Source: Fasciola hepatica (lineage: Eukaryota > Platyhelminthes > Trematoda > Plagiorchiida > Fasciolidae). From it: a stretch of DNA of 64,000 nucleotides. Under the pieces are notes generated by a model. It was not told the DNA's origin and searched no databases. It saw only the letters and a program-made list of their open reading frames with translations. Within the stretch, counting starts at the first letter, position 1, and every line of letters starts with the position of its first letter. The stretch lies in the NCBI GenBank assembly GCA_948099385.1, contig CANUEZ040000168.1:5123001-5187000 (forward strand). The letters are read 5' to 3'. Both the position numbers and the translations under genes were made by a program. Positions 4,778-50,097 of the stretch are shown piece after piece.

Positions 4778-4882
4778 GTGAATGTCTCCACGCGCTGTCC
4801 AGTTACACAGGAGATAATCAGCTCGTCCGTCGATGTTTACAAAGATCAAACTATAGAAGAGGCGACCGCTATTGCACGTGCT
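4778..4882 (+). CDS. USP47: USP47-like exon, phase 0 to 0
   Basis: A 35-codon exon after a pyrimidine-rich tract ending in TTTCAG and before the donor GTGAGT. It begins VNVSTRCPVTQEI and ends DQTIEEATAIARA. The EEAT motif followed in the next exon by CRLVQY matches the USP47 segment around EEATEMVYKM and CCRLVKYDEF as I recall it, a ubiquitin-like fold. This is the first exon I can support; I found no convincing coding exon upstream in the window. Confidence 0.75.
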
Positions 4883-4962
4883 GTGAGTTTTTGCCCATGT
4901 CTGTGTGAAAGTTTCTGTTAAAACTCAGTGCAGTGTTGACCAATGGGATTCGCATGTGTTAC

Positions 4963-4963
<1 letters not shown>

Positions 4964-4995
<32 letters not shown>

Positions 4996-5006
4996 TGTGT
5001 TTGTGT
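4964..5006. repeat. (TG)n microsatellite
   Basis: About 14 TG units, then imperfect TTTGTG units. Confidence 0.95.
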
Positions 5007-6539
5007 TCCGACTGAATCTCTCCCAGTTAGCGTTTTACCCTTTCTTTAATACACCTTCAACAAGCTCTGGTTTATCTTTTTCCCCCCTTCGAACATGCTG
5101 CATACGATTTGTGCACCTGGGTATCGTTTCTCCGGTCTCTCTTATCTATAAAACATGTAATTAGAGTGGTACTGATCTGTGCACCTGGACCACAATCGGC
5201 TGATATGATCATTAGCAGTGTCTCAGAAAGCAAGAGACTGCGAACTGGATTGAAGAATGGCATAGGATTTCATAGGTGATCTCCATCACTAAACTTGATA
5301 GCCGGTCGCGGGGTTCGGTCCTCGTAACGCAGACTTGGACATCCTTCGACTATCATTTAAATACCATGGTTTGTCGTCTTATATTTTCCTTATTGTCGTT
5401 ACCATTTCTCGGTTGGAAACCGAATACAACATTACTCACGCGTGGACGTTATCACGCATTAGTTTCAGTTAGTACTATTGCTACCATTACCGGTTCTGAA
5501 TTTACATTTTAGTGCTTAACAACGCGCATTCAGCTAAAAATACTGTCTAGCGAGCAAACCAGCGGCAATTGATAACAATTTTTGGAACTACCCATATTAG
5601 CGGGTGCTCATTATTTTGGAAGCGAAAAAAGCCCGTGACTGTGCATGGTACACAACAGTGTTGCGTTTGTTTATCCGCGTGAAAGTTGCCTTTACCATCC
5701 TCTCCTTATTGAGAACCACTGCGGTATTCGTCAAAATGTATTCTGTTACGTGGAGCCGTGCCATGATGCAATTGTACTTTCACTGTCTAACGATCGTACT
5801 ACTGCCTCCAAATTAGCAATCCCTCCAGGCAGTTAACTTCGTTTCGTCGACGAGTTGGTTGTTGTTTGTGGGTCATAATTGTCAAGCAGATTGTTTCTCT
5901 TGCTTTGCTTGTTGAAACTGTGCAGATAACGTTTCTACAGATAAACGGTTTTGAACCCTTTTTCTGTCCTCTGTTACATCTCACAGAGAATCTTGATCTC
6001 GAGACCCACCAAAAATTCCTTGATTTGTAAATGTTCACTACTTTATTTGCATCATTCCGATGTGTCACCATCTTCGTTTTTTCCCCACGCACGTTTAAAT
6101 ATTTCTGGTTTCTTGCGCACTTCAGTTTTCGTTATTTCATAATCACACACGTGGACGTTCTTCACGTGACTATATTTTGTTCACACGGACCTGTTGCATC
6201 TAGCAATGACGTTCTCCCCGGTGTCCCTGAAAGTTGATGTAAGCTGTTAAACGTGGCAATAACGATTCAATTGGCCGGAGTTCCTCGATCACGTAATCGC
6301 CTCACAGTTCCAGCTGCTACGATTAGCGTCAGGATCCCTCTGCCAAGAATAGTCGTTTTGCATCTGATATAAACTGTGGTCATATATAAGGAGCTGCGTC
6401 TGACGCATTGATCTCTTTTTAATTGTCGTTTTGTTTCGTTTCTCCTGATTTTCCTCTGTAAGACGATAAGAAACTTTGCAGACTTGTTACTGCACATTAT
6501 GAATCCATCTCTGCTTTCCTGTTGCTCCCACACATTCAG
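5007..6539. other. Intron sequence, no exon supported
   Basis: An open stretch at 5645-5836 (Cys-rich, ending LAIPPGS) looked exon-like. It lacks good splice sites, and the exons at 4882 and 6540 join perfectly without it. Confidence 0.5.
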
Positions 6540-6719
6540 GCACTTCTACCGACATACGGGGATGTTAAAAATGTCAATTGTCGTCTGGTACAGTACGCCT
6601 TGTACAATGATTGCTTCGGACAGTCTGTAGAGTATGCAATGTGGCGTCGATCTGTTGGCACGCAGGCGGAAAATTTGCCCAAACTGCTCGGAAAGGAGCC
6701 CGTGCAAAGACCCATGGAG
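6540..6719 (+). CDS. USP47: USP47-like exon, phase 0 to 0
   Basis: A 60-codon exon between acceptor CACATTCAG and donor GTAAGA. The protein starts ALLPTYGDVKNVNCRLVQYA and ends KLLGKEPVQRPME. CRLVQYALYNDCFGQS lines up with the CRLVKYDEFHDYLERS block of USP47, and the tail with the following block LLLETR. Frame and phase continue directly from the exon ending at 4882. Confidence 0.8.
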
Positions 6720-7195
6720 GTAAGATATCGCAATCGAACCTGCGGGTTGCACGCTGTTTTATTGTTTTTGTTTGCATTGCCTTCGAGAATTTATTTTATT
6801 TTACCTTTCGCGTGTCATCAAACTGGTTGTCTGCATAGTCATATCCAAAATCTTCGCATTTCTCACATACCACCAATGATGTTTACACGGCCAAACTGTG
6901 CCCATGAGACTTGAGTAGTTTTTTCCGTGACTGACTCACATTCCTTTTTTTCCGCTGATTATTGGTAACCATGTGGTTTTTAATGAACTGGATAATGTTC
7001 CACTTATCTTCTAATTTAACTAGTGCTTGTCTTTTCCCTACTCATGACTTCTAACAATCGGATTACATCATGTAAAAGCATTCTTGATCCTCCAATCTCC
7101 GTTTGACTAGCATTTATACTACTCGATCAATAGCAAATCACACCTATCTTGATCGTCGGCATCACTTAAAGATCCTTTACTTTTTCAGATTGCAG

Positions 7196-7214
7196 TATAA
7201 ACCCGCCAAAATCG
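7196..7214 (+). CDS. USP47: USP47-like 19-nt microexon, phase 0 to 1
   Basis: A 19-nt exon coding YKPAKI plus the first base of a Gly codon. It sits between the acceptor TTGCAG and donor GTAGAT, about 476 nt after the previous exon. It is needed because the previous exon ends in phase 0 while the exon at 18040 starts in phase 1; 19 nt is 6 codons plus 1. The joined protein reads YKPAKI-GITFRISRVDI, which follows the YKPGEVMVKVHVVDL stretch of USP47 as I recall it. An alternative acceptor 6 nt upstream would give an in-frame stop. Confidence 0.65.
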
Positions 7215-7321
7215 GTAGATATCCGGGTTTTTGAAAGCTAATATCGATATCCTCCAATGTGCTGTTGTTTTTTGCAGCTGGTATGAGCATATATCCGCAA
7301 CTTGACATTTTTATAATGAAT

Positions 7322-7572
7322 CATTGGTGGTCCAGTGGTTTGAAGCATGTGCCTTCCACCTCGGAGGTCAGAGATTCGAATCCCACCACGGCAGATCACG
7401 GCGGCTTAGTGGTAATTCATTGGTTCCCGGCTTGTTACCAGATTTGACCTGTTGGAATTTTTTGAGGTTTTCTCCAAGTCACAGAATCAGGTGGTCGGTT
7501 AACGCTGATAGCACCGAGGGCCTTCGAGGCCATGGTGATAGCCCTACCGCTGTACTCGTGCGCAGGCTTGTA
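7322..7572 (+). repeat. tRNA-headed SINE-like repeat
   Basis: The head GGTGGTCCAGTGG (A-box-like) is followed about 40 nt later by AGATTCGAATCCCACCA (B-box-like). A body ends with GGCCTTCGAGGCCATGGTGA and TACTCGTGCGCAGGCTTGTA then GTGAAAA. The body matches the copy at 47.04-47.28 kb, which also ends in an A-rich tail. Confidence 0.65.
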
Positions 7573-10500
7573 GTGAAAATGGTATGCCGATTACGTTGCT
7601 TTATCACAATACGTCTCGTCAGTCCGTTTTCACTGAAATATTTGGGAAGTCCTACTTATGATTGTAACTGGAGGTTTCTCCATTCAATCACACCACGTGG
7701 TACAATTTTATCTACACAACAGCGCCGTTCTTTTTTTACGTCTGACGTGTTGGACCGTCCTCACATAAAATTCCGTCGTGAGACCAAATCGAATGAACCA
7801 ATGCCAGTCAACCTACGCTCGAAACTGTACACGCAGAAAACACTGTTGAAAAATTGTTTCTTGTGATTCAAGATCAAATTTAGGTCAGTGTTCTACAGCT
7901 GGGCATATCTTATTATGTGCTGCAATTTGTGTTTATCATCGTCATCATATACTTTTCCGTTGCTGCTTTTTTGGCTTGTAAAAAGTATGCCGTGCTCCCA
8001 CACTGACCTGGTGATTGGTGATTCTGTTTAGATTTGGGTTTAGTAGACTGCATAACCCTCGGTCAACTTTCGACAACGATCAAATCTACTGGAAAACTTC
8101 GTACTGAACTTCCATATCCTTTGCGTGCTGATCTCGCCTTATCTGCTCATACGCAGGAAACAAACTGGTGTTCGCTATCATCTTCTTCCGGCTAACTGAT
8201 TTCCTAGCTGGTATCCTAACAATTAAAAACAGAATTCAGTCCTGCCAAAAGTGACACGTTTCGTAGTACAGTGTTTTTCCGACTTTTGTTTGATATATGA
8301 AAACCGTTGTACCACTGTTTTCACGGTAATGCAATGCTAATTGTACTGCTGACAGTGCCTTCATCACTCGTTCCTAGGGCTTTTCATCTTCCGAAGTTCC
8401 AACTTCTCAAACCTTACAGTCAGTTTGCACGGAGAAACCCAAAGCCGCTCCAGCATGTGGCACTGCAAGTCCACTTTTGGTCGACGAGTTTATAAACAGT
8501 TACTGCACTCTATGGCTTGAACATCGTTTGAATGTTCCCGGCGCTCTGGGATCCCCCGTCCTGGACAATAAGTGGCGTACTTACGAACCGAAAGGTGGGT
8601 TACTCTATGTCAATGGTTTGAGTTCAGTTTCAAATGGATAACATAAAACCGGTTTTAACTGCCGTGGTAAAACGTTTTCGCGTAGTCGGCTATTTTATAA
8701 GTGATAGCCTCTTCACAGCTGAAATCTCATTTGAATCGTATCGTGCGTGCATGGACGAGGAGTTCTTTTTTAGAATCATATAATGATTTCTCTTTATTTA
8801 TTCCGTTGGCTAACATGACCAACCTTCAGAACAAGGACACACAGTCCCAATTACGGATTTACGATATGCGATTACAGCTGTAAACCAACTGCGAAGTGCT
8901 CGAGTAAAGGGATGATTTGGGCAGAAGAGTATCCTCTGACTCACGGATAAAACATTCCTGCTTAGTGGACCCATGATTCAAGTGCAGCTACTCATATCCC
9001 ACTGAATGGTCGTTGCTGGTTTGTGTCGACTTGATAACCCTGAGAACAACTAAGTACCATTCGTGATCGAAACGCGTGATATTGTGATGCGTCATTCCAA
9101 AGTTCACCGAAATTTGATACATAAACGGCTTACTGGTGCCAGGATTACGGTTCACATCAGTGTTTGGGTCACACTGACAGGCGAACAATGTTGTCGTCTT
9201 AGCTTAAAACGTAAACCCTCCCACCTACTCCACTTCGATCAGCTCAATTCTTCAACATTATTGCTGACCGACCCGAATAAAAAGACTCGGTCAGCACCAT
9301 TAGAACTCACCAAACTCGTTGGCTTAGTGATTCTAATTTATTGCATGATTGGGCATGAGTGCAATGATCCACTGCACTAATAGAGATAGCCGGTAATCAG
9401 ACCCTGGGACTTGGAGTGGAGAACCACGTAAGGTCCCAACAGGTCAGATGTGCCAAGATGTCAGAAAACTGATCATATCAGCAGACTGAAGTGCACAATC
9501 AATTTTGTTCGGAAGACAAAACCCATAAATAAATTTGACCCTAAAATGTTTCTTGTTCGGAGATAACATCCAAATGCAAATGTTTCTTGTTCATTTCTGG
9601 GGAGCCTATTGCATACAGAATGTTTCGTATGGAGTAAGTTTAGTTTCACAATGAGGTTAGAATTTAGGAGGGGGCACTTCTGTATTTGCATTACAAGGTA
9701 TCCCATGAACACGGGCAGAGGGGCACATATCCTAGCCACAAGAGCCCCTACCACACTGTCAGCCAGAGTTGTCAACGATGGCCATGAACCGAAAGGCACT
9801 TAGGGCCCCAGTAGGCCCGTTGTGGTGAGGACCTAATCTTCACCACGACGGTATCTACTATGGAAACCGATTGGCCTACTGAGTTTCTCATTGAATCATC
9901 ATTTCCCACCAACTTTGCTGACCTAATCCCCTCGCGATTCGTACAGTTTGAACTTTGGCAAGCCTCAAATTTGTTAAAGAATTCTGGCTATCTTTTTGTT
10001 CATCATGAAATCACACAGAGACATTGTTCATCGTGTCTGCGGTTTGCACCCAGTAAGTGAGTCATATGAATGCCTCTAGAATTCTCTTGTGTATCATCTT
10101 CCCGATAGACCATATCGGCAATAGACACACTTAAAACGTAATGAGTCATCGTATTCCGGCTTATTTCTACTTTAGTGGTAACATCTTGAGCAGTAATTTG
10201 TGTCCAGCCTACATTATTCCTTGTTCAGATTGCCTTTTAACCACTTTCGATTTTTTACCGTATCCGAATTGTCTCTTAACGAAAGTGTTTTCTTACCCTC
10301 GAAGTGTGCCATTCATGCTCATTTGAGAGGCATAAATTTTGCCGATGATCGCCTGTAGCATTTAGGATGCTGTGATAAAGCACCGAAAGCCAAATGTAAG
10401 GTTATCAGCAGAACACAATTGTGCTGAACTGGGTTCTGGTCACCGGTTGAATCGACACCATTTTTTCCGACGATCGTCCATTACCAACAACAGAAATTCT

Positions 10501-11200
10501 ATTTTTTGCGTTCAGGTGATCACCCTACTCAGTTCATTTCTTAATCTGCCTGTTGCTGCTGTCCAGCCAGCATTCAAAATAAACCTCGGCACCCGTAACA
10601 ACCATTACGATTAAGCTAATCGGACATAAGTTCATAAAATCTATTACATACACTACGATTTGCGTTGTGGTATTAGTCCACTGGAAGATAAATTCGGAAT
10701 CGGTATTTTTTGGATCGACTATCTTCGCCAACAGTGGAAAATTGTCAGTCGATGGGGTCGTACCCGATTACATTGTAACAAAGAAGGTGACACAGGCGGG
10801 GCATACCTGTATTTGACTAGACAGACAGCTCAAATCGGTACAACATATACAACGGTTTAAGTAGTTCGGTTTGCGGTCCGCGCTGTTGTAATATCGATTT
10901 TCTCGCTGCCTGAGCATTTCGGTTCCGTTCTGTCCAGAAACCGGCGGTCATTGGGTTGGTTCTCCTGCACACCATTCCAGTTTCATTGACCGGATTGCTT
11001 CCGTTGATGGCTTGATCGGTAGCTCCGTGCTCTTATTGACTCCCTGAGATCCAACATGATTCCATCTGTGAATTTTCAGGGCTATTTTTGATCGCCTCCA
11101 ACATACTCATTCTCTACTTTTGTCTGTGGCTCGACTGGTTTACCTCGTTCTGTTGCTACCGTATTTCCCGCTGTATTGTTATTGAGAAAATAATAATTTG

Positions 11201-11202
<2 letters not shown>
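7573..11202. other. Intron sequence with repeat fragments
   Basis: Apart from the SINE-like piece at 9330-9460 I see only short unsupported frames. No splice-bounded coding segment in a usable phase was found between exons 7214 and 18040. Confidence 0.45.
9330..9460 (-). repeat. SINE-like repeat body
   Basis: The block GGGCATGAGTGCAATG through CCTGGGACTTGGAGTGGAGA to AAGGTCCCAACAGGTCAGA also occurs near 23.64-23.77 kb and 40.97-41.09 kb. It is the reverse complement of the tail of the 7.3-kb copy. The tRNA-like head is not clear here. Confidence 0.55.

Positions 11203-11253
<51 letters not shown>
11203..11253. repeat. (TA)n microsatellite abutting a retroelement
   Basis: About 25 TA units that stop within about 10 nt of the 5' edge of the RTE-like copy at 11.26 kb. 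Confidence 0.95.
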
Positions 11254-11255
<2 letters not shown>

Positions 11256-12110
11256 AGATGGGTTATTTCCATCTTTTTTGTCAAGGATGGAGGCGAAGCT
11301 TTGGTTTCGGAGTTAACAAAAATCCGCATTATTTGGGATAGTGAGCAGATTCCGAGGGAATGGTGTGAATCGGTGATTGTGTTGATTTACAAGAAACGTG
11401 ACAGGTCGTTTTGTGAAAACTACAGAAGGAAATTAGCTCGGTAAGTATCGCGTCTAAACTGCTCCCCGAACATATTCCCCACCGATTATCCAGTGCCCCG
11501 CGAAATGTGTACGCGTGAGAATCAAGCTGATTCCAGACCCGTTCGTGATTGTGTCGACCGCATCTTTACTCTTGGGCAAGCCTGAGACCATAGACACATC
11601 TTCCGTAGGCGCACAATCTCTGTTTTTTCTTTATCTGAAAGCGGTGTTCGACTCCGTCGACCGCACAGTTCTCTGGCATTGTCTTCCATTGAAGAGTGTG
11701 CCGGTGAAGTTCATTTCTCCTTTCCAGTGCTTATGTGCGAGCAGCTGAAGCCGAGTTAGTGCTTACGGGGATCTTTCCCCCGAGTTCACCACGGAAAGTG
11801 GTGTTCGTCAAGATTGCCCACTTTCGCTCTTCCTCTTCAATTTTTTGGTTGAATGGATTCTTGAGATAGCCTTATCTTCGTGTGAGAATAGCGACGTTGA
11901 TCCTTGTTCAGACAATAAACTGTCTGACTTGGAATGTGCGGACGATATTGTTCTTCTGAGTGAAGATCCAGGTAAGTTGCAAGCTCTTTTAGATAGCCTA
12001 AACAACAGTGTAGGAATGTTTGGGATACGTTTCGCACCTTCGAAGTGTAAAATGCTGCTGCAGGACTGGGTTTGTTCAACACAAACCTTGTGTTGGCAGG
12101 GGAAGCTCTC
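11254..12110 (+). mobile_element. RTE-like retrotransposon, 5'-truncated copy
   Basis: Close to the copy at 34.8-35.5 kb. Shared landmarks are the linker ending EALVSELTKIR, then FLYLKAVFDSVDRTVLWHCL, a spacer GYGDLSPEFTT absent from the 35-kb copy, and CADDIVLLSEDPGKLQALLD with FAPSKCKMLLQDW. Several stops and frameshifts make it dead. The 5' edge falls at the TA repeat. Near 12110 it passes into a different degenerate element. Confidence 0.78.
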
Positions 12111-14160
12111 GCTTTATCATATCGGCCCGACAGACAACTTCGGACTTCACGGCCTCGCATTCGCCATTAGTCATAAAGTCAGCGGCATAGTCATTGCAAT
12201 CTACGCCCTGATCAATGTGGCAGACATGAAAACGAGATGAATTCTACGGCAGTCTCCAAGAGTTTATCAACCGGGTTCAGAGTCGTGACATTCTGTTCGT
12301 CGCTGGATACTGTACCGCTGATACATGTCCTCCGGATGTGTCAACGTGGCACATCCTGGGAAAATTGGGTCTTCACCAAGAATGGTGATCACCTGGTCAG
12401 TATGGCCGACGCTAACAAAATGGTCGTTTGCAGGACACGCTTTCAACACCCCTAAATACACTTACTGACGTGGTACTCAAGCGACGGTCGCACTTTGCAT
12501 CTAATCAGCCATATTCTCACGAGGTCTCGCTGGATCTCGTTTGTGGAGGACCGTCGAGTGTACTGAGGTGCCTCGACGGGAGACAAATAACACAGACCCA
12601 ACCCACTGCGTGCGCGTTCCACAATCCATTTATCCACGTGCCTTAAGTCTCTCTACCAACCCGAATAAACGTCGCGACATCGGAAAAGCCAGGAAAATTC
12701 CACGTACAATGACAACCCTATTGCCAGCCGTAACCAACACATCTCCAGTAGAAAAACGTTGGTGTGATCAAATTGACCCTTTGAGAAGCTGCTTTGAGAG
12801 ATTTACGGAAACCCAGAAGACGGCAAAAAGATCGGGTTTCTATGGACACTTCAGCTTTCAATCAAAAACATAAAACCCAACTATCAGTAAGTTAAGAACG
12901 CCGTAGACTGCGAAAGGAGGCCCAACGTTCTGTTAGGACCGATCATAAGCGTAACTGGATGGAAGCAACTGAATACAGTGAAATCGCGCCAGACACCGGT
13001 GATCTCGACCAGCTATTCCGCTTCATGTGCAACTTATTGGATTGGCGCTGCAAGCATGAGTCGCTTCTGCGGGACGCGGCCGGTCAGTTCATACCTGGGC
13101 AGAAACGAAAAATAGAGTGACGCGCAGAGCACGAACCTATAACCCTCAGCCCTTTCAGAGCCGCACGGTGTCAATTGTGATCTACTTAGTACAACTGAAA
13201 TCGCCACAGGCATCAACCAGCTAAAGAACGGAAAAGTCGCTGGAGAAAATAACACAACACCAGAAGTCTACAGGTGCTGTCTGTGTTCATTGATCGGCAA
13301 GTTATACACCCTATTGGACTTCACATGGAGAGACGAAGTCTTCCGGACTGATTGAGACACGTCTCTTCTGTTGCCCATTCCCGAGAAAAGTTGACAAGTC
13401 ATTGTGCGAGAACTGTTGATTGTTCAGCTTGACTGACGTAGCTACTAAGGTTTTCTGCGTGCTGCTATTCAGCTGCTTCCCTGCTACGAGAGACCAGACA
13501 GCCCCCAACAAATCAAAGGGGTTTTCATCGTAGCAGGGGCTGCGTGGAACAAATCTTCACGCTGCGTTTAATACTGAAACATCCCTTCAAGTCTCAGAAA
13601 TCAACTACTATCCGTTTCACTGACTTTCTTGTCGCCTTCGACTCAGTTACCCGGGAGTGTCTCTAGACGATCATGGAATCCGACGGGATGCCTGATGAAC
13701 TCGCATCGCTTCTGAGGCGATAATATTCATCCACATGGTTTGCACTCATTACCGGAGTCAGACAAGACTGCCCCCTTCTACCGGTGCTGTTCAACAACGC
13801 TTTCTATTTGACAGTCAACCAGGAACTGATCGACTACTCTGTTATGTAACTGAATCAGTTGTATATCTCAGACATGGAGTTCGCGGATGACATTATTGTG
13901 CTAGGAGACTCTTCTGATACGCTTTAACCAGCCTTGATCGAATCGACTTTGTCGTGAAGTCCATCAGGCTGAAAGTTATTAACAAAAATTAAAGTTCTGT
14001 CAACCTACTCAGCGTCATCAGATGAACAACTGCCCATCAGTGACCATTCGATCGAATTCGTCATTCAAGTACTCAGGCTCTGCATTGCTTCCGAACGGTC
14101 AGGTGAAGGGTGTAATAAAACTACGTATCTTCAACACCGGGAAAAAAATGTCAGCAGCTA
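12110..14160 (+). mobile_element. Second APE/RT non-LTR family, very degenerate
   Basis: Successive frames give endonuclease-like pieces (FGLHGLAFAISHKV, ADANKMVVCRTRFQHPL), a linker (APDTGDLDQLFRFMCNLLDW) and RT pieces (VAFDSV, then GVRQDCPLLPVLFN, then MEFADDIIVLGDS). FADD is the RT catalytic box. The order endonuclease-linker-RT is that of an APE-type non-LTR element, but sequence and spacing differ from the RTE-like copies around it. Dozens of stops mark it as old. Confidence 0.65.
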
Positions 14161-14184
14161 CGACGTGCGTTGCGTACTCTCACG

Positions 14185-16070
14185 ACTAGACTGCACCTTG
14201 AAGTGGTGTGATGACTTGCGTGCCTCTATGACCCGAAGAGCTATACAAGCTGCCTTTTTCAAGTCCGAGATGCAGTCACGTCCGAAGAGTCAGTGGGTAG
14301 AGGCCAGACTAAGTCGTCTCCAAGTTCTCCATGTTAGGCTGGCAACTCGGTAGGTAGATTCAGTGAATGAAGAACAGATTGAAGCAAATGAGCTTCGACT
14401 CAGCCACCCGACTGCCTTGCGAACAAGTTCTCGTTAAAACTAAAGGCTTCGTTTAGGAACACTTATCGTTCTGCTTTGGGGCTGGGCACTGAAGCAGTAA
14501 CCGTCGAACATCTCATGAACTGCACGACTACGGAGAATTCCATACTGCATCGATCATCGCGCGGGATAATCAGGACCGCGCTGCGCATTGCATCGAGCGG
14601 GGTGCGTAGTGCTTGCTGGGCTACTGCTCAGAATTATCTCTCATTTATTCAACCTTTATCTCCTGTCCCCAACCATCTCTCTTTGCCCCCACCTACCCAC
14701 TCATAATGCTCCCACTATTAACAACCTGTTGCTCGCAACGGTTCATTGTCAAATAGTGTCGGGGATAATCCACTGTCCTGTAACTAATTTTCTCAAGCCC
14801 CGTCAGCCTCTGAATCTGGGCTCCTTTAACGTGGATAGACTCATGCAGGTCAGTCAGAAGACGTGCCTAGCGCTCTCAATGTGCTCTCTGAAGATTGACG
14901 TGTGCGGCGTAAGTGAAACGCGTATCCAGGATTCGGGCAGTTTGATTCAGTTAACTGTTCATCGAGGTATTTTCTGTGCTCTTGAGGAGACGAAGCGGCT
15001 GGAGCTTCGTGTCAACGTGGTGTAGGAATAGTCTTGAATGACGAGGCTGAGACTGCCCTTTTTTAGACTGGATCCCGAATAATAGTCGTTTATGTGCAGT
15101 TAGACTCAAGGGGTTAGTTGGCGTTCGAAAGGATAGTTGTGCTAAGCGCAATTTGTTTGTGATCTCGGTCTATGCTCCAACGGACTACAGCTCTGACATA
15201 CAGAAGGATGAGTTCTATGATGAACTGACCAATCTCGTTCGCAGCAATAAAGGTTCTGACATTTTAGAGCTAGCAGGTGTTTTTCATGCACGAGTTGGGA
15301 AACTTATTGTGTCAGAAGCTTGTTTAGGTGATCGTTTTGCTTTATCTACTCAGCACGCGGATAACGGGGATAAGGTTCTCCAGTTTTGTGCAGACAATCG
15401 ATCATTCGTGTTTATTACCAGTTTCCGACACAGTTTACGTCACACAGCGACATGGCACTCTAACGATTCAGGTATCCTGAGTCAGATTGATCATATCAGA
15501 GAAAGCTACTGGTGGCTGAGTTCTGTTCAGAACTGTAGATCCCAGTGGTCCACGTACGTAGAGTCGGACCATGCATTAGTTTTATGCGATTATCACTCCG
15601 GCTTCATGGTCGTGGACGTAAACCGGAAACCCGATTAGCCGTGCATCGTTTATGTGGTCCAGACGTCCGCACCTGTTATGAACAGAAGTTAGCACATGAG
15701 CTTGGGTGTATGATGGGCGGTAAAGTAGATAAGCATTGGGCCCATATCCAGCAGGCGATGCACAACACTGGATTTCTCACGAGTCTGTGAGTCTAATGGA
15801 ACAAACAAATCTGTTCTCGAACTGTTTTGAGATTGATAAGATGCGGAGAAATCCACGAAAACAAGTTTCAAAAAGCTCTAAGAATGATCGGGAAAACTGG
15901 TTGGTCAGGGTAGCCGAAGAAATGTAGGTATCAGCTGCTTCAGGTAACGGTCAAAGACTGTTCAAACTTATTCGCGACACCGGTGGGCGAGGAATCGCGG
16001 TTAATGAATTGTTATGTGGTAAGAATGGGGATCCTGTTTATGGTAAAGAGTAAAGGTTCAAGCGTTAGGC
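14185..16070 (+). mobile_element. RTE-like retrotransposon, 5' end and endonuclease, 3'-truncated
   Basis: The 5' leader (CTGCACCTTGAAGTGGTGTG) is shared with 34.17 kb. The APE endonuclease follows: LNLGSFNVDRLMQVSQK, DVCGVSETRIQDSG, FVISVYAPTDYSS, then SQIDHI and SDHALVLCDYHSG. The usual GDFNA box is replaced by LAGVFHA, so a metal- or DNA-contact residue is lost. The copy breaks off near 16070, in the linker before RT. From 14571 it is near-identical to 26.09-27.60 kb. Confidence 0.82.
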
Positions 16071-16304
16071 CGAGTACCACCGTACCGGGTGTGTGCTGCC
16101 AAGATAACGCAATCGGACTGAGCAACTGAAAAGATGGGAAGCGTTTGGCTTAGTATCAGTTCATTTCGTTCAGCCGGTAATCTCACTTCTGTTCTCTGGT
16201 CTGGGTTTCCACGTCGCTGCATCGACTAGTTGGGGAAAGTATGTATCGAATAGTACAATGAATAAGCAAAAACCCTGTGGTCAGCGAAAATCACAAAGAC
16301 AAAC

Positions 16305-17030
16305 GAGGAGCCCGAATGCAGCTACGCGACACCTAGCTATGTCATTCAGTTTCTCCAACCATCTAGTAGGCTAGTCTCGTGGACCCCAATCCGAGTGTCT
16401 AACGCGTTCTACTTGGCTAAGTCCACTAGTCAAGGTTTTCATACTTATTCACCACGTCGACCTATATTTCAACTACTACATGCTTAGGAGAACGGCGTTC
16501 GCCGAACAAGTCCATCGGTTAGTATGCGTAACATATGTCTCAGTCACTCTAACCTGTTTAAATTTGGTACTTGTTCTGATTGACCACTGGTTCCCAGTAC
16601 ATAACGTCTAATTTCAACATTGTTGCACGGTGTTTTCACCACGTTCGAGCAATACTATTTTGATATCGATGCTCAGACATGGACAGTCTTTGCCCATCGT
16701 TCGTTCTCAAGGGCCATGTTTCTGAACTGTATAAAAGCATAAATGTGACAAAGGGATGTCACGCCGGCGCCACGGATGCGTAGTTTTGGTGAAAGTAGGA
16801 CGCACCTTGTGTGTGCGCGATGATATTTCATCTGATATCTGACCACCTGGTGAGATGTAACTGGTCAGGTAACAAAAGTTATGTGGTTCAGGTATAGCTT
16901 GCCGTGCCAAGACCATGTTTGGTATGATGCCAATGCGGTCCTGGCACAGCACTTTACATTTGGAAGTGCTGCGCCAAACGGTCAAAGCGACGTTCCTGAA
17001 AATGAATCACGCAAGGCTTCTGTGGATCGG
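16305..17030 (-). mobile_element. RTE-like 3' half (minus strand)
   Basis: On minus it reads SKCKVLCQDRIGIIPNMVLA, then EPHNFCYLTSYISPGGQISD and the RTHKVRPTFTKT..LWRR region of the RTE-like RT C-terminus, followed by the 3' region with the reverse complement of GACACCTAGC. A near-identical minus-strand copy sits at 39.06-39.77 kb. This one lacks about 17 nt near 16770. Confidence 0.75.
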
Positions 17031-18039
17031 TTTTTCTAGGGGGATCGTAATGGTTGCCAGATTACGCAGTTTCCTCCATTTCTCTATGTTTCAGTCCGGT
17101 ATTGTTTCTCAGTTGGCTGAGCGCGTACAGGCGTGTGGGCGTAAATTCCCTCACGATAGCCCAAGACTCTTGTCATCTGGATCAGTTCACTAATGATCAA
17201 AATCTCCCTGAACACAGCTCCTAATTTAAAAAATCCAACTCGAAGTTCTATGGATTTCAGGTTCTTATCCAACTTGTTGACTCTCGGACTATTCCGGGTC
17301 ATGAACCCTTTACAGACAATTTATTACGATCTAATAAAAAACAATAATAAACCTCATTGTGATTTCATTCTGCCGGTGATATACACTGTGCGCTTTGTTC
17401 TATTTCGATTGCAACAAGTGCGATGTGCGTGAACCCAGTGACTCACAGGTCTTTCGTCACCACTTTGATGGGGAACTCACCGTTTGGTTGTGATCGTGTT
17501 GATTTGAATAAAAACACGTCTGACCTAGAGAACAAGCACGTTGAGTTATTTTCTGTTGTTGTTGTTGTTGTGACTCTTCTCGTGTGTGTTGCCGTACCCG
17601 TTTTTTTTTACACGTCCACGACAAATCGGCTATTTGTCTCGTTCTGTTCCTCAAATGAAATGAATTATTCACATGGTAGTAGGTCCTTGTCCGACGATTG
17701 GTTGCGTTGCTCCTTTGTTTGTGCACGTTTCGCCCGGCGCATACCCATATTGATCCGTGGTCGCGGTGAAGGAAAAAGTAAAACCGGTTGTGTTATGCAC
17801 TAGCACATTGTGAATCAATAACTCAACTCCGGTTGACTTTCTTTCCCCGTGGAAACCTTGCATCTAGGTAGAGTAATTTTTTCCTTGGACTTCATTTCCT
17901 CCAGGTTATGGAATTTTTCTGTTTTCTCTCATTCGACTCGCGTAATCCACTCGGTGTCACAACAATCATCCGTTAGCTTAGGCAAACCACAAATTAATGC
18001 TCCCTCCTTCCTTTTTTTTCTTTCCTTGCAAATATGTAG

Positions 18040-18155
18040 GAATCACTTTTCGAATTTCTCGCGTTGATATCAGCCGAAATTTGGTGTACCCTCCCGAACG
18101 GATATGGATGCCCCCAAATGCCACATTGGGCGAGCTCACTGTAGAACTATGGAAG
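18040..18155 (+). CDS. USP47: USP47-like exon, phase 1 to 0
   Basis: The exon follows a long pyrimidine tract and TGTAG and ends before GTCAGT. After completing a Gly codon it codes 38 residues, starting ITFRISRVDISRNLVYPPER and ending LGELTVELWK. The pattern (a beta strand, a second strand ending in a proline-rich turn, then TLGELTVELWK as a helix start) is a ubiquitin-like fold and corresponds to the USP47 segment with TVTEFKQLISKA. Its 5' intron is 10.8 kb. Confidence 0.78.
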
Positions 18156-19665: not shown

Positions 19666-20557
19666 GTCCATCAGCGTACCAGGTACTTCTTGATTGGTCG
19701 GCGAACTGATCGAGGCAGTCGTAGGCCCGCTGCCAAATTAGTTTTGATCACGTTTATAATAATGTTATTGTCCAGTGCTGGGTACGTATGGGGAAAGATA
19801 TTTGCTATCAGTTTGTACAAGGGGAATTTTATTCCTTTTCGGATGTAACCCGTTATCAGATTCCCGAATTCCATCTCTTCCAAGTGGTGCATCCAGTCGA
19901 CAGAATGAAGGTTTTTTTCTTCGGATAGTTCTTCCTTACGTTCGGCGGGTTTGAATGCTGGTACGTACATCTGCGGGCTTAAATAAAATCCGATCTAATG
20001 AATAATAGCATGGAGCATGTAAAAGTAATGATAAAAATCTTTTTCATCGCGACACAAATACATTCCAAAAATCGTTGTTCACTACCGGTGCCAACCACTG
20101 TTTCCGAAAATAGTTGGCCACTTTTCTAGTTATCGTATATGATGCTTGAGAATCTTGTTTCCCAACAACGCAATCCTATCGATTATCTGGTAACCAGTAA
20201 AGCATCATGTTATCGGAAATGATTGTTGGCGGTATGGTGTCCAACGGACCGTTGTTCCACGTGGGTCTGTGTGCTATGCGTGTCGCTTATGGTAATCGAT
20301 GAATCGATCAATGTAATATATTGTGTTGCGTAGCTTTCCCGCCCTCTCACATAACTTCAAGATCCAGGTTGCCAATCCCAAAATTAAAAAGTACGCGGGA
20401 AAACTATTCCGCTTGTAATTTCCCTCTCAGTTCATTGTGAATCTTGCAGCGCAAGGGAGGAAGGGTTTTTTTAACTCATCTGATTTTCCTATTGTTGTAG
20501 CAGTAGTGACTTTGGACCATGAATATCCTTGACGTTGATTCAGTAGTGGTTTCACCG

Positions 20558-20560
<3 letters not shown>

Positions 20561-20608
<48 letters not shown>
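20561..20608. repeat. (TA)n microsatellite
   Basis: About 24 TA units. Confidence 0.95.
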
Positions 20609-20610
<2 letters not shown>

Positions 20611-21490
20611 GCTCCATCTGACTGACTTTTCATTTCTCCTGTTCACCGGGTTTTCTCTGAAAGTTATGAGAATTTTGTTCAGACAAAAAACGGTTCTTGG
20701 TTTACTCTGTGTGTTTACGTTCTTGTGTGTCTTATCATACGCGACAAGCGAACGTTCACGTGAATGTCCATTATTCATTGCAAGTTATTTTGTCTGTAAT
20801 CCTTCATTGCGCTTGTCGTATATCAATTCAAGTCATGGTATGAACCATCTTGCAGCCAGTCACCTGTTCGTTTCGTGTTGTTTTTTGTCAAAATGAACTG
20901 TAATACATCTTTCGAATTTGGTTTGTGACATCTAATACCGATCTAAATGTTGCTGTAAGAAAACAATACTTTTGGTGATTCTTGTTGTTATCAATATTGT
21001 TTGGTCAGCACTTCTGATCTGCATACCTCTAGACCTTAAAGTTTGTGTAAATTACAGAACAGTCTTATGGTTAGTTGTTCATATTCATCATGTTGCGTTT
21101 TTCTGACGTATTCCATTCCATGGAGTCGACTAGCGGTTCATTATGTTTATCAATGTATCTAGGGTATTGTTTGCGGTTGGTGGGTACAAGGAGTAAGTGA
21201 ACACGGAGTTCGCCATCGCTTAGCGGTGGGGATAACCGCCGTTTAATTGTGTTTCGTGCTTGACTCTCTATCGTCAAATTCTGAGTACTCTACTTGCACG
21301 TCCGGGTTGACATTGGAAGAAATGATGCAATGGTCACATTACGGCGGTCTGTCTTATAGGCTGAAGAATCTGACACCAGGTTTGCTAGCAGTTGTCTTTT
21401 CCCAGCTTCGTAATCGGAGCAGACTCAAGGGGTAAAGATTGCAGTTGGGTAAATATTTTGAGGAATGTGGTCTATAACTGAAGCTAATGG

Positions 21491-24566: not shown

Positions 24567-25083
24567 CTGTTCACTGGTCAAGTAGTCGCGGAAGACAACC
24601 TGCCCGACGAGTTCAAGCAGCTGACGGTATCCACAAACTGGAATAAACCACTCTCCGGTCTGGCCTTGCGACAACCTAATGATCACGCGGTTGGTATGAG
24701 CCTAGCCGATGTAAGTACCGTTCTTTATTCCGGAACAGACAGCCCGGATCGGTTGTCCAGCCATTTGATGGATCTTTTCCCGGCTGCTGTGTTCGACTCC
24801 AGCAAACGGTATAATGAAAATCATCCAAGCAGCGTCTTCATTTTCGTCGATCTCGGTCCGCGTGCGGACGGATTGCTCGGGATCGGTTCTTCAGCTCTGG
24901 ATCGATTTGTGTCCACGCACCCGAACTTGTGGTATTGCGATACAACTTCTACAAATCAAACTAACAACAAATCAAATGGGGCCCAAATGGAACACATTTG
25001 TCGCACATGTCAACTGCGACTCTTATTGGATCGATTTCTGTTCTGCGTCGTAGTCACTGTCACTTTGCCGACACGGAATGAAG
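24567..25083 (+). CDS. USP47: USP47-like exon, phase 0 to 1
   Basis: A 517-nt exon opening right after ACACAG (an in-frame TAA lies just upstream) with LFTGQVVAEDNLPDEFKQL, which continues the ELWK helix of the previous exon. FKQLTV..LSGLAL..LADVSTVLYSG follows the USP47 block with MRIVLE..LRLLSV..GFF..NKVFVE. The later SSVFIFVDL fits the strand NTIRLFVLL. The last third (about residues 100-172, Asn- and Thr-rich, then hydrophobic) is poorly supported. I chose the donor AAG-GTAAAA because its phase 1 matches the next exon; an earlier donor is possible. Confidence 0.65.
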
Positions 25084-26090
25084 GTAAAAACGCGCTACAT
25101 ATTTTCTCTTGTCCTTCGTTCGGTTGTAACGAGTTGCATTCAGAAAACGCTTCCTGACCACAGCGTCCTCTAGTCCTACTTTGAATGCATCAGTTGTGTG
25201 TGTCTGATTTTTTTCTGCTATCCTGAATGAAATATCAGTGCAGATTTGGTATCGCTGTTGGTATATGTTTCATATCGTCTTTTCACAACATTTCACTGTC
25301 TGCCTTTTCAGTCCCTTTACTAATGCGCGGATGAAGATCATATTTAGGTTTTTGTGTGCTCTACTTTCGCGGAAGCACGGAGTAGAACCCATGAGCGCAA
25401 CGGTCCGTGGGACCAATCAGGCTGACCGGCTGTCTTAATCTTGATGCACGAATTGGTTAACCTTCAGTTTCCAGTTCACCTTGGGCAAGTGATAACCATG
25501 CACTGAGTGCTCTGGTTCTGACTGTTCTATCTCAGCAACGTAACCGATCGGGAACTCGTGTCAAACCGTGGATAATTCGTTCCTGAACTTGACCTGACTG
25601 TCAACACTACTCACATTTTGTTCCTCGGTAATTGTTACCACTAGAGGACAGTAATTAATCATAACCGGCATTGTTGAAACTGAAATAGACTCAGAATAAC
25701 TGTGCCAACTACATATATGATAACCGATGAGAAAACCTTGTCTTGTAATGAATAAGCAGTCAGTTGTTGTGATTAGTTTGTCCGGTTAGCTCGGAGTCGT
25801 TTAAAACGAAGTTCGTTAAGAGTTTTTGATGCTTTGCCCGCACAAATTAATCTTGTGCGTGCAACTTATCAACTTGCCTGTCTTCCCTGCTCATGGCTTT
25901 CAATCACGCTCCACTTCCCACACAGTGAATACCTTGAATCTGCAACATGAACTATTGCAGTCCACAAACCGCTCTATCGGCTGCTCACACTACGCAGGTG
26001 AGTAAACGATCGCTTTTTCGTCATTTTCTGATATGCTTTATTTGAAATATTATCTCATCTGGATCACGTTAACTTGATTTCTTGGATAAT

Positions 26091-29569: not shown

Positions 29570-30000
29570 TGCACCCTCAGTTGAATGTGCCTTTCGACTA
29601 GAAGGTTGCTTTCTCTCTGTTTCCTAATGGCCTTCTACTTCTTCTGAGCAGTTTTCCTGGCTCAGAGCTCACGATAACCCGAAACAGTCTTGGAGGTTTT
29701 CTATGAAGCGGTTCATCTTGTGCCACTTAAATTCACGAAAGTACCCGCAGTTATTTCTTCCGGCGTACATAGATTTAAACCTCACATTTTAACCCAACTG
29801 CGTTTCAGCGGCCACTTGAAGCACGCAGAAATGTTTATCTGCTCCATACTGTATTCATAAATGAGAGTGATAACCGTTGTTTGCTGAATCACTATTCTTT
29901 ACTTGTCACCCCATGCATCACAAACTTCTGCCTCTCGTAGTAAGTGCTCCGAGATGTCACTATTTTTCTGACGGTAGCCTTCTTTGTTACACCGTTCTAG

Positions 30001-30373
30001 TGCACTCAACCAACACCGCCTCCTCCACCATCGGTCGCATTGTCACTATCCCAACCACACCTCGTTTCTACGGCCAGGACGATATGGGTGTGCCAACTTC
30101 GTTAGGGACACGTACTTACTCTCAGTCATCCGCGATCCGAGAATCTGTACGACGGCGGAGTAATTCGTTCTCCAATTTGGCCCACGTAAATCCAGATAGG
30201 GATCTCATGGTGCCTGCGTCGTTTGCTCCCGTGAAGACCCAAATGACCGACTCACAAAATTCTTCAGACGAATATTTCTTTGTACAATCGGAAGTGGAAC
30301 ATTCGAACCGAGCCGCGGAACCCGTGTGTCGATGCCCTGGTTGTTGCACGGCACTTGAACGATATGCCCATCG
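30001..30373 (+). CDS. USP47: USP47-like exon coding a disordered linker, phase 1 to 2
   Basis: The exon starts after CGTTCTAG and ends before GTAATC. It codes about 124 residues rich in Ser, Thr and charged residues, including RESVRRRSNSFSNLAHVNPD and SQNSSDEYFFVQSEVEHSN. USP47 has a long disordered, serine-rich and acidic linker at this place between its ubiquitin-like folds, so poor conservation is expected. RRRSNSF looks like a basophilic kinase site (inference). Start phase 1 and end phase 2 match both neighbours. Confidence 0.68.
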
Positions 30374-31667: not shown

Positions 31668-31821
31668 TGCTCTGAATTTCGAATCCAATGCCTATGAGGA
31701 CACGGCTTTCTCGGACGCCTGTGTACCCAGCTATCGCGCTTGCATAGATAAATGGGTCAGTATGATCGACCTATGTCGACTTTTGGGCGAGTATCTGAAC
31801 GTGAATCCAAAGTGTATTCAA
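31668..31821 (+). CDS. USP47: USP47-like exon, phase 2 to 0
   Basis: The exon follows CCGTTCCCAG and ends before GTGAGT. After completing an Arg codon it codes 51 residues, starting ALNFESNAYEDTAFSDACVP and ending LGEYLNVNPKCIQ. The segment KWVSMIDLCRLLGEYLNVNPKCIQ resembles the USP47 stretch KWLMVHVDK..FKQHLEPFVGV..FKVFRV, the start of another ubiquitin-like fold. Confidence 0.75.
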
Positions 31822-36817: not shown

Positions 36818-36874
36818 GTTCGCAGAGGTCCATATTCCTCGTTCGGTTCTGGAATTCTACGTCCCCAGGAGGAG
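36818..36874 (+). CDS. USP47: USP47-like short exon, phase 0 to 0
   Basis: A 19-codon exon between TTTTTCTGCTCAG and GTAGGT, coding VRRGPYSSFGSGILRPQEE. It continues the strand KCIQ of the exon ending at 31821; the join CIQVRRGPYSSFGSGILRPQ follows [20 protein letters not shown] of USP47. Introns of 5.0 and 6.4 kb flank it. Confidence 0.7.
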
Positions 36875-43298: not shown

Positions 43299-43556
43299 CT
43301 TACAGTCAGCTTGACGCCATGTGTGGATCCTTTGGACATGGAGCTCGCTGTCCATGTGCTCGATCTCAGTGGTCTGTTGAAAGTGACAACGGTCATCTCA
43401 CTCTCGGCCTCCTCTCCTTTGTGGCCGGATCCATTAAAAATACTTTGCCGCCTCAACTGGACTGTGAAACAAGTGCTAGAAGTGGCATCTACCATGTTGA
43501 AACTTATCTACCGACTAGAAATACCACATCATCGGTTAGTAGTGGAATTTTTGCTC
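43299..43556 (+). CDS. USP47: USP47-like exon, phase 0 to 0
   Basis: An 86-codon exon after CTCCCTCAG. It begins LTVSLTPCVDPLDMELAVHV and contains ILCRLNWTVKQVLEVASTML then KLIYRLEIPHHRL. This follows [20 protein letters not shown], then the TVRQSKEELIPQL helix and LSIDRFRL of USP47. I place the donor at GTGTGT (43557) because it ends in phase 0. A second possible donor, GTTAGT at 43535, would end in phase 2 and does not fit the next exon. Confidence 0.72.
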
Positions 43557-45109: not shown

Positions 45110-45479
45110 GCTTTGTCTACGCAAATGCACACTACCCGAGTGCAGTCCCGGGCCTCTGTTGGAACCGACCAGTCAGCTATCCTCGTTCCGAAATCCCCAT
45201 CAGGGTGTCTTACTCCAACTGCTAGAGGAAAGTATGTCCCCGGTCTCCGTTCCGTCATCCGTTTCCCTCTCAACTGTCACGAATCTGGCCTCCACCTCTT
45301 CTCGTTCCGGTATCTTTCTCTTTCTGCGTCGATGGTATCCGAGCACTTTGACGTTCTCCTCATCTATGTTCGAAGTCTTTATCCCGCCGGGTTCCAGTCG
45401 ATTGAAATACTGGTGTGCTACTGTTGAACAAATCTGCGAAACACACCAAATCGCACTTGATCGTTTTCGGTTCACTGCG
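45110..45479 (+). CDS. USP47: USP47-like exon, phase 2 to 0
   Basis: A 370-nt exon after AATTCCCCAG and before GTAAGT. Its first 70 residues are Ser-, Pro- and Leu-rich. It then codes IFLFLRRWYPSTLTFSSSMF and EQICETHQIALDRFRFTA. This follows LAVLSRRWKPSEMKLDPFQE, the LREKLSEISGIPLDDIEFAK helix and strand of USP47. The RRW(K/Y)PS match is the strongest single identity in the gene. Confidence 0.85.
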
Positions 45480-46484
45480 GTAAGTTGGCGAGCATTCTGA
45501 TTAGGATCTCTTCCTTCGCCCGATTTCCCCTTTTCGCCGGGGTTTTTGTGTGATTTTTTTCCATCAGACTTTTAATTGTTCACAAGTCCAAATTCTGTAC
45601 AAACCGGCTCACACTGTTTGCTCTAAACGTCGAATAGAACGCCTCTCATTGCAAATCAAAGAATAACCCCGGTAAGATGAATTCAGCTCAAGTCAGAACA
45701 CGGGGGCCAACTCACTCTGTTTCCACTGAAGAAAACTCGTGGGAGCTCTGTTTGTTAATATTTTTTCTCTAGACCATTTCTTTATCCGTAGTCGGAAACG
45801 ATAACGATAAGCTAATTATGGTTACCGTAAAGATAATCGATATGAAGGCATAGAGCAGCAACCGGCTTACTGTACCAAAAAAATCAACTCGTCGAATTGG
45901 CTGTATCACGGTAAGTACCACTCTCTAGTTTGACGAGAAAGCTTTCGGACTCGTGATCTATGATACTTAGGTTTAAGGAAAATCAAACCAGATACCGGAC
46001 CTGTTACAAATGACCAATTTTTTAGAATACTTCGCCTGCATTCGCGTTTTGACATTCGCGAAACTAACTAGCTGACTTGCACTCGCGATTCTCTCACGAA
46101 TCTGTGCAGTTAGCAAAATCGTCGAAAAACTCTGTAGAAGTGTCTATGTTTGATTTTTGCGACACGTACCAAACATTTGTCATTTCTCTTGATCCTTGAC
46201 GCATTGTTGAACCTAATCTGGCAAATGTTCTAGGCATTACTCTACTTTCCCTTTAAGCTGTATGCAGGATGCTGCGATTCTTTGGTACAGATTGAATATT
46301 CCTCGATTTCCGGGTGACCTGAACTCTGAATGTTCGATCTCTTTTATTTTTGCGGGTTTACGATTGCTCGCTTATCGTTTGCATTGATAATAATGAGCTT
46401 TTGTGTACATCTATTCGGAACTCGTTTGAAATTCGCCAGTTAGTTTCCGATTCTAGCAACTCAAACTCGAGATGATCTCTTTCT

Positions 46485-47035: not shown

Positions 47036-47278
47036 TGGAGGTCCGTTGGTGCTCAAATGGTTTGTGGCATTTGCTTATCACCTCGGAGATCAGAGATTCA
47101 AATCGTGCTACCACCGGTCACTTTAGTGATAGACAGTAGTCCACTGTCGTCTAGCTCGTTATCACACTTGACCTATTGGGTTCTAGTTGCTGGCTATCCG
47201 TTAATAATGCATAGGGCCTTTGAGGCTATGGGGTATAGCCCTTTCAGTATACCCACGCGCATGTAATGAAAACAAAAA
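47036..47278 (+). repeat. tRNA-headed SINE-like repeat
   Basis: Head GGTGCTCAAATGG with B-box-like AGATTCAAATCGTGC, then ACAGTAGTCCACTGTCGTCT, TAGGGCCTTTGAGGCTATGG and ACGCGCATGTAATGAAAACA with a final A-run. It matches the 7.3-kb copy along its length. Confidence 0.65.
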
Positions 47279-47537
47279 ATTCCCGGTGGTCTAAAATTCC
47301 AGTTGAGACTCAGTGGATATAATGATTTCTAACAAGGTTAAAACGCTTTTTACAGAGCTGCCGAAAAATTTCAATGGTGAGCCCATGGTCATCGAAGCCA
47401 CGGAGTATAGTCGGAATACAGTCAAACATTTTCATTATTGTGCGTGCATCCGCTTTTTAACCTTCATAATTCGTGATCACACACTGCTTCAGCTTTCTAA
47501 TTCCATTTACTATGGTCCTCCGGTTCTGACACAACAG

Positions 47538-47680
47538 TGTAAATTTCCCGGTCTGCTGCATTGTCTGGCTATGGAGCCAGAAATCGCTTCAAACAGTGAC
47601 AAATGTCAAACCTGGATTGCACTCTCTTCGTCGGATTTGGATCGACTTATGCCTGTCAACGGTCAGGTTGTTTATTTTAA
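47538..47680 (+). CDS. USP47: USP47-like exon, phase 0 to 2
   Basis: The exon starts after CTGACACAACAG and ends before GTGAGC. It codes CKFPGLLHCLAMEPEIASNS and then WIALSSSDLDRLMPVNGQVVYF. This matches GTFPCDISVLDIHQDLDW and WPLYICDDGAVIFYRD of USP47 in order. Removing the next intron gives VVYFKDADEPCLKLTPEELQ across the junction. Confidence 0.82.
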
Positions 47681-48286
47681 GTGAGCTTCCATTCATTCGT
47701 TTGAATTCCCGAAATGCTCCGTGGGTTTATTTCCTATTTTGTTTCTGACGGTGTGTTGTTCGATAGATGCCATCGTGTGTTTTAATCAATATCGTGGAAC
47801 CATTTTGGGAAAACATGTATTGATCGCTCGTCCGGGCTGAATTTCGCACCTTGCCTGTTGGTATACACTATCAAAGGTCTCTGAGCCAGGACTGTAGATT
47901 ACAATTGGCTGTGGTGGTCTTTGGAAGTGCATTTTTGTTTACACTTGTGATAATGCATGCAATCAAACGATATATTATCGTATTGTGTATATAAATCGTT
48001 CGGTGTTGGGAAGAATTATGTTGAATTGGTTGAGATAGTACAATCTTTTGAATGCTTCATACATCTGTTCTGCCAACTTAACCGTAAAGAAGTGTACAGC
48101 CACAGGGCCCATCCTTTGCACCGGATCACCACCGGTCCCTCGGGTTAGACAGTCATTTAATCTGTACCGCCCAAATGACAGTAAAGATTGCTAACGAGAA
48201 TGTAGTTATTCACTTTTTGCATTTGTTTCTCAGTTTCGCTTAGTGTCCTCAGTCGAACTGTCTACCGTTTCTTTTCTTGATTTTAG

Positions 48287-48355
48287 AGATGCTGATGAGC
48301 CGTGCTTGAAACTGACGCCAGAAGAGCTTCAGTCCTACCGAGTGGGACCTTCATG
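48287..48355 (+). CDS. USP47: USP47-like exon, phase 2 to 2
   Basis: A 69-nt exon after TTGATTTTAG and before GTATGT. It codes DADEPCLKLTPEELQSYRVG then PS and part of Trp. LKLTPEELQSY corresponds to LMELTDEQRNEL in the USP47 tail. The next usable acceptor in matching phase is at 49905. Confidence 0.8.
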
Positions 48356-49904
48356 GTATGTTTGTCACTCAGTGTTTGCGCAGGTGAAATTCTCTTCACC
48401 TCTCTGTCGTCAGTCCCGAGTCACGTGCCCCAATTTTCACGATGTACAATAACATTATTTTACTCTCCCGGGATTATAAAATCCAGTGACCATGCTGTGT
48501 TCTTCCCATTCTATACCCTTCTGCATCGTGTTACTCTTCTCGTTCACTTTCTCTCATGTTTTTTTCTCAGATGCATTGGTATCCCAATTGAAGGATCTGG
48601 TTTCACCTGGTGCCTTTCACTAAAACAAAATGTTATCAAATCAGACCAAACCATTACCGAATAAGTTACTCTGTTAAGAAAGAACAGCAGGAAAAAAAAC
48701 TGACTGGAGAACGAATCAACAAATTGGTACAGAAATTTTTTTTATCAATTAGAACAGCATGTTTTGTTTTCATGAGCTCAGGCCATTACGGATTATACAC
48801 ACGCATACATACATATACATGCACACATACACATACCAATATATTCAGCCAGCGGGCGTGCAAAAAATTTCAATCGGTAATTACCGCGAATATCCTTGTC
48901 ATGGCATTGGTCTTATCGGTTTGTTATCTCTAATCAATCAGTTGATTACATCTTACGGCTTTGACCAGTCATGAATCAGGGAAGTTTGGCTCCATGTAAT
49001 AATTAGATACCTTTTTCGTTGTCTTATCCATTGCTTACATGCACATTTGGATTCCTCTATACAAATACGGGTTGGTGTGGTTTCCGCATTCATCGGTTGT
49101 CGAATTTCGCCCAAAGGCGTTAAATTGCATTAGTTGTTGTGTGAATCAGCGTGAACTGTATTCCCAGCAGAATATTTTCTCGCGCAGATTGCGTCACCAA
49201 TACGAACAAGTCTATCAAAACAGGCACATGTCTAATTCAACAGTATCACTGTATCAACAAAATGGTTTCCTCACCGTTTTTGCACTTCACTCCCCGTTGA
49301 AAGACATTAAAAAACTGCTACACACTTTCGGCGGTATGGAATCCAGTGACTTTGTGGGAAGCAATAACCTGGGATAATGGTCGTTAATTTCTTGCATTGC
49401 ACTCCCGGATCTGGTTCGTCCATAGAAAACACTAATCAACCGATTGGGTAAGCATCACTGGTGACTTCTCATCTGTGCTTACCCTGCCAAGTCAGTTTTC
49501 GGTTGCCACACTAGGAAGTCTCTGGAAATTCTTCAGTAGGGTCGGAATTGTTATCCCCCTCATTTACACGAACAAGATGTGTGCGGTGATTGATTTCGTC
49601 TCAATGCGCTTCCTCCCCCCCCGGCTAACTCTGTGTCTGAATTGGACCTCTCGGTTTCAGTCTCAAGGCGTTTGCACTTCCAGCTATATCCCACTTGTGA
49701 CTCAATTCCATGGCCCGTTCCATTTTACCATGATTCCATTGAATTGCCTCTCAGTTTTGTTTGGTTCACTAAATATTTCCACTACTATCTCTACTGTCAT
49801 TATTACTAACATTACTATTGTTACCACTATGAACTTCCAAGGTTTACGTTGTTCCAATCATGTACTGAGGAATGCAACATCACTGTCATTTTCTGTTGTC
49901 ACAG

Positions 49905-50097
49905 GGATTCCTGCTCACAAGACAAACCCGCAAGCATGCCCGCATTGACCTATGGTCCTACTCTGCCGCCTTCGTATTCGGATTTGACGCATACTTTCGG
50001 TTCAAATTCTGTGAAACGGACCTACGAGCAACCTCTACGAATATATACAGCCGAAGACCATCCACCAGCACCCCGGGCAACAACTAAACCCACGTGA
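49905..50097 (+). CDS. USP47: USP47-like terminal exon with stop
   Basis: The last exon follows TCTGTTGTCACAG. Its first base completes a Trp codon (phase 2). It then codes DSCSQDKPASMPALTYGPTL, and later SVKRTYEQPLRIYTAEDHPP, ending TTKPT and TGA. KRTYEQPLRIYTAED matches the USP47 C-terminus [20 protein letters not shown]. The phase-0 frame is also open and would give a different tail, but it does not fit the preceding exon. Confidence 0.75.

Follow-up and report, generated by a model that had tools for sequence, protein, structure and literature searches.

Exon organization of the locus

Our analysis of a 64,000-nucleotide stretch of the Fasciola hepatica genome (hereafter the window; contig CANUEZ040000168.1, positions 5123001-5187000, plus strand, in a genome of 1.5 Gb and 656 contigs) identified 14 coding exons between positions 4778 and 50097 that, judged by their homology, very probably form the 3' half of the Fasciola USP47 gene. 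The gene is apparently single-copy and would extend over at least 70 kb, with its catalytic exons upstream of the window. It is hard to see because the exons are small and far apart. An earlier note on this DNA had proposed separate exons spread over 4778-50097, whose order is that of the C-terminal half of USP47 and which end in a stop codon, and such a chain was recovered here on the plus strand, with its stop at 50095-50097. As that note had it, the longest exon measures 517 nt (24567-25083) and the joined length is a multiple of three (2862 nt including the stop, 953 amino acids). Its count of 15 exons and 14 junctions was reduced to 14 and 13; the agreement of phases that it had described holds at every one of the 13 junctions, and all 13 introns in the window are of the GT-AG type.

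The conserved exons were placed by tblastn using the USP47 proteins of Clonorchis, Paragonimus (two) and Heterobilharzia, and then a 406-amino-acid protein of F. buski (P0121), while the remaining gaps between them were filled using splice sites and phase. A splice-plus-codon exon finder gave few exons at strict thresholds and more candidates at looser ones. All exons are on the plus strand; the phases at which each begins and ends are given in brackets. The first three exons are shared with the F. gigantica protein P0002: 4778..4882 (0 to 0; best E-value with trematode USP47s 6.7e-5; also backed by its splice sites), 6540..6719 (0 to 0; E 1.8e-7; 98% identity to P0002) and 8378..8594 (0 to 1; E 4.1e-7; identical in P0002). 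They are followed by 18040..18155 (1 to 0; E 8e-8 with P0005; mean alignment posterior 1.0) and by the 517-nt exon 24567..25083 (0 to 1), which is matched by all four trematode proteins (E 1.8e-5 to 0.005; mean posterior 0.70). The short exon 25926..25997 (1 to 1) has a better splice score than any other candidate in its interval that fits the phases. A linker exon at 29941..30373 (1 to 2), with an alternative start at 30001, contains an RRRSNS stretch that aligns with Paragonimus; its end was set by phase and a by-eye match.

In the remaining part of the chain, most exons are matched by F. buski P0121. These are 31668..31821 (2 to 0; 59% identity, E 9e-19), 43299..43534 (0 to 2; tblastn E 2e-9; 64% to P0121), 45110..45479 (2 to 0; tblastn E 4e-21; 67% to P0121, E 1.6e-47), 47538..47680 (0 to 2; 67%, E 1.5e-16), the short exon 48287..48355 (2 to 2; 82%, E 2e-6; acceptor read directly) and the last exon 49905..50097, which carries an LRIY motif and the TGA stop (73%, E 5e-24). 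Between the first two of these lies a probable short exon at 36818..36874 (0 to 0), the least certain of the set, which has its splice score and a random-insert test in its favour. The end of the gene was set at 50097 because the trematode proteins place it there, and a continuation suggested by a match of 52013-52087 to the human USP47 C-terminus was rejected for the same reason. A further match, at 45815, did not fit the sequence of exons and was dropped. An AATAAA element read directly at 50683..50688 (plus strand) may serve as a polyadenylation signal. A scan 3' of the stop for bacterial promoters and terminators, a method unsuited to a eukaryote, returned nothing.

Catalytic exons upstream of the window

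Three UCH exon matches were found 14 to 20 kb upstream of the window, on the same contig and strand. Reading of the 40 kb upstream for catalytic exons gave six in all (window coordinates, plus strand): -20413..-20229, -18647..-18279, -17412..-16928, -14700..-14176, -12403..-12196 and -8043..-7975. These six exons encode the ubiquitin-protease domain and join the window exons in phase. The model contains NSGMTCYMN, SGGHYFAFI and WYQFNDRHV, the motifs of a UCH-type domain, which we take to hold the catalytic Cys, His and Asp, respectively. Over 611 amino acids, this catalytic portion shows 99.5% identity to a public F. hepatica protein named USP47 (P0001), and the larger upstream exons are 95.5-100% identical to F. 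gigantica P0002. The full 20-exon model, from which the N-terminal exon is absent, translates into 1566 amino acids with a single stop, at its end. Its alignment to Clonorchis USP47 spans 1641 columns, with 37% identity.

The assignment to USP47 rather than USP7 follows from the scores. Compared with solved structures, the hand-joined catalytic draft gave 195 bits with USP47, 146 bits with USP7 and at most 80.3 bits with other USPs (among 60 of 94 chains listed). The genome's best UCH locus (L001, on C25), used as a control, behaved in the opposite way, with 574 bits for USP7 and 158 for USP47. As USP47 scores higher, the gene is not USP7 by sequence comparison. The same family emerged from a database search with the draft protein: among the 120 of 263 matches listed, names were USP47, UBP64E or uninformative (unnamed, hypothetical, USP domain-containing), and none named another USP.

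Further upstream, the frame L010:2226-2378 (window -27774..-27622) resembles the N-terminus of histone H3, with differences from the usual sequence.

Strength of the exon chain

Agreement of phases is not independent and constitutes weak evidence, because the exons were chosen to fit the phases. We therefore scored colinear chains of tblastn matches (summed bits above 18 per match) with splice sites unused. The C-terminal halves of four trematode USP47s gave chain scores of 254.4, 203.1, 229.3 and 171.7 on the plus strand of positions 3001-51000. The control maxima were 18.7 for the opposite strand, 28.0 for four genome decoys on both strands and 16.3 for reversed queries. These colinear chains are stronger evidence than the phase agreement. 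The joined 953 amino acids also matched a profile of 45 of 101 usable other animal USP47 C-termini (E 3.6e-17, 271 columns), compared with an E-value of about 0.5 for the reversed animal profile.

The chain appears to have a single place in the genome. A search with Clonorchis USP47 gave 10 matches, seven in this locus and three catalytic-domain matches elsewhere, and the F. buski C-terminal protein gave five matches, all in this locus; these copy-number searches score best candidates only. L001 itself (C25:2898091-2898927) is a USP7-like MATH/TRAF plus UCH sequence in one open frame of 417 amino acids, which may represent either a retrocopy or a gene with few introns. About 0.4 Mb from the USP47 locus, on the same contig but the opposite strand (C168:4682399-4709449), there are two more UCH matches, perhaps belonging to one gene.

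Several results weigh against the USP47 reading or against parts of the model. The gene model is a prediction from genomic DNA and homology. The alignment of the joined protein with a profile of five other trematode proteins (882 columns, E 4e-124, 31% identity) is partly circular, because those proteins helped to place the exons. The human USP47 C-terminus on its own found no exon at a significant level (best E 0.096), and no convincing match to an N-terminal exon was found in the approximately 30 kb scanned upstream. The window protein scores 17.2 with PF19718 (USP47_C), for which the cut-off is 27 bits, and a genome-wide PF19718 search gave no match, but its controls were likewise silent. 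The joined form is unconfirmed by annotation within the genus, because no full C-terminal Fasciola protein was found; when the C-terminal part was used as query, with eligible lengths of 0.55 to 1.75 times its own, there were two hits, to proteins of F. buski and P. kellicotti. At the level of single exons, 36818-36874 has poor similarity, its inclusion raises the profile score by only 2.2 units, and the F. buski gene model splices its neighbours directly, skipping it.

On the other hand, this exon has the top splice score of six phase-fitting candidates within 11.4 kb, its 19 residues can be fitted by eye to 20 in Clonorchis, and none of 100 random 57-nt inserts equalled it; for 25926-25997, one of 100 random inserts did so. 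Mean alignment posteriors were 0.32 for 29941-30373, 0.59 for 25926-25997, 0.62 for 36818-36874 and at least 0.67 for the other 11 exons. Starting the linker exon at 30001 also keeps the frame and scores 973.4, compared with 971.4. Uncertain points of the chain are exon 36818-36874 and the position at which exon 29941-30373 starts. An extra exon for the longer Clonorchis linker was sought between 25997 and 29941; the candidates seen there lay in frames resembling retroelements, and all were discarded. The 517-nt exon, modelled by itself with AlphaFold, gave a structure of too low quality for use (mean predicted local distance difference test score 37.9).

The PF19718 cut-off is a detection threshold and not a defining feature of the family, and five of the six other trematode proteins also fall under it. 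Because this holds for the majority of the USP47 C-termini examined from trematodes, a domain search alone would call the region absent. Overall, the sequence evidence supports the USP47 reading of the earlier note: the USP47 gene at this locus is an ordinary one, its exons from 4778 to 50097 are genuine, and the earlier observation was right in substance.

Introns and retroelements

Introns in the window amount to 42458 bases, 28% of which were matched by a genome probe of 20 stretches of 10 kb (200 kb) taken across the genome; none of the exon bases (0%) were matched. Since the sample is small, 28% is a lower bound, and it supports some share of retroelements in the stretching of the gene, while the majority share claimed earlier is unproven. 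The introns look near typical, because the probe stretches themselves are 22% covered by each other. Four introns hold most of the matches (49%, 73%, 55% and 18%); the first of these values belongs to the longest intron, 8595..18039 (plus strand), with a reverse-transcriptase fragment at 11749-12240. Reverse-transcriptase similarity was found in two of the seven intron frames examined, once above the Pfam cut-off.

One retroelement-like frame is present in two introns, in copies that closely resemble each other (14570-15025 and 26126-26545, plus strand), and frames with long Ile-Tyr runs at 457-957 and 20510-20896 correspond to TA-rich microsatellites. On the 3' side of the gene, a long uninterrupted frame (57994-63285, plus strand), which looks like a retroelement of the BEL/Pao type, matched integrase and zinc-binding integrase domains in one of the two pieces searched.

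The mean intron in the window is 3.3 kb, close to the 3.7 kb given for F. hepatica in PMC4404566, and the F. gigantica genome report (PMC8519440) describes insertion of long interspersed nuclear elements into introns, longer genes and fragmented gene annotation. A stretched gene is therefore usual for the genus.

Alternative readings

The long introns may allow the fluke to make, in addition to the full-length enzyme, a short one ending in the intron after -8043..-7975 or after 8378-8594, an idea that we regard as improbable. The short product, if true, would be without the greater part of the C-terminal half that activates the enzyme, just as the truncated public models are.

If the locus held two genes, one for a short catalytic USP that ends near -8 kb and another for the C-terminal part that begins inside the window, this would account for the lengths of the public models (614 amino acids in F. 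hepatica P0001, 618 in F. gigantica P0002) and for the separate 406-amino-acid F. buski protein, annotated as hypothetical, that corresponds to the C-terminal part. However, the P0001 model runs on into the intron that follows -8043..-7975 and stops there, on a contig of 15858 bases, P0002 links catalytic exons with the window exons at 4778, 6540 and 8378, and both halves occur in one protein in Clonorchis and Paragonimus, with phases that agree across the join in Fasciola. We consider the two-gene arrangement very unlikely.

It is hardly conceivable that the locus is a decayed USP47 pseudogene: for all the length of its introns and the weak Pfam score of its C-terminal part, there is no frame break in 1566 codons, all modelled introns are GT-AG, catalytic and C-terminal motifs are intact, and the genome search found the C-terminal protein nowhere else. 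A chance combination of open frames selected by splice phase, for which the flexibility of phase-based exon choice and the reliance of the short exons 25926 and 36818 on it could be cited, has a negligible probability and, as regards the entire chain, is refuted by colinear homology far above the controls without splice sites and by the absence of exon bases from the repeat sample (0%).

Predicted function and comparison with known USP47 proteins

A single USP47 gene, as preferred here, would yield a working deubiquitinase if its full-length form is expressed, with the predicted catalytic domain cutting ubiquitin from substrates. The 14 window exons would encode the C-terminal half, made of ubiquitin-like (UBL) domains and a conserved tail motif, which by analogy with what is reported for human USP47 would raise the activity of the enzyme. 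UBL domains after the catalytic domain, a feature of family membership, are found here, and a UBL fold is predicted for the F. buski orthologue: the 25 best Foldseek matches of its C-terminal protein model are all USP7 structures. The tail of the last exon, EQPLRIY, corresponds to EKALKIY of P0009, P0013 and P0037, and thus retains the conserved hydrophobic motif; Heterobilharzia P0007 is without it in its last 70 residues. For human and C. elegans USP47, PMC10516900 describes UBL domains together with a hydrophobic motif near the C-terminus (L1360 and I1362 in the human protein).

The Fasciola USP47 annotations found so far are truncated, and the window chain completes one of them, supplying the rest of an enzyme that is conserved in the ubiquitin system; the protein models of this liver fluke, where found, reach no further than the catalytic domain or slightly beyond it. 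The locus is a worked example of long introns breaking Fasciola gene annotation. An open-licence literature search gave no paper on USP47 in flatworms or Schistosoma as judged by title, no work on USP47 of Fasciola among the matches listed, and, by title, none on this gene among the deubiquitinase matches for F. hepatica.

Within the genus, F. hepatica P0001 has the same catalytic part but none of the window exons, and F. gigantica P0002, named UBP64E, holds the first three window exons (the second at 98% and the third at 100% identity) but is missing two or more of the upstream exons and terminates within the intron that follows 8594. Clonorchis sinensis USP47 (P0004, 1674 amino acids) has the same order of parts and the same LRIYTAED tail as the fluke model, and differs in its complete N-terminus and in the greater length of its linker between the exon ending at 25997 and the one starting at 29941. 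Human and C. elegans USP47 share with the fluke protein the catalytic domain, the UBL domains and the hydrophobic tail motif, while the C-terminal half of the latter is strongly diverged. USP7 is related in its catalytic domain and likewise has UBL domains in tandem, but scores lower than USP47 at this locus and has a separate counterpart in the USP7-like locus on C25.

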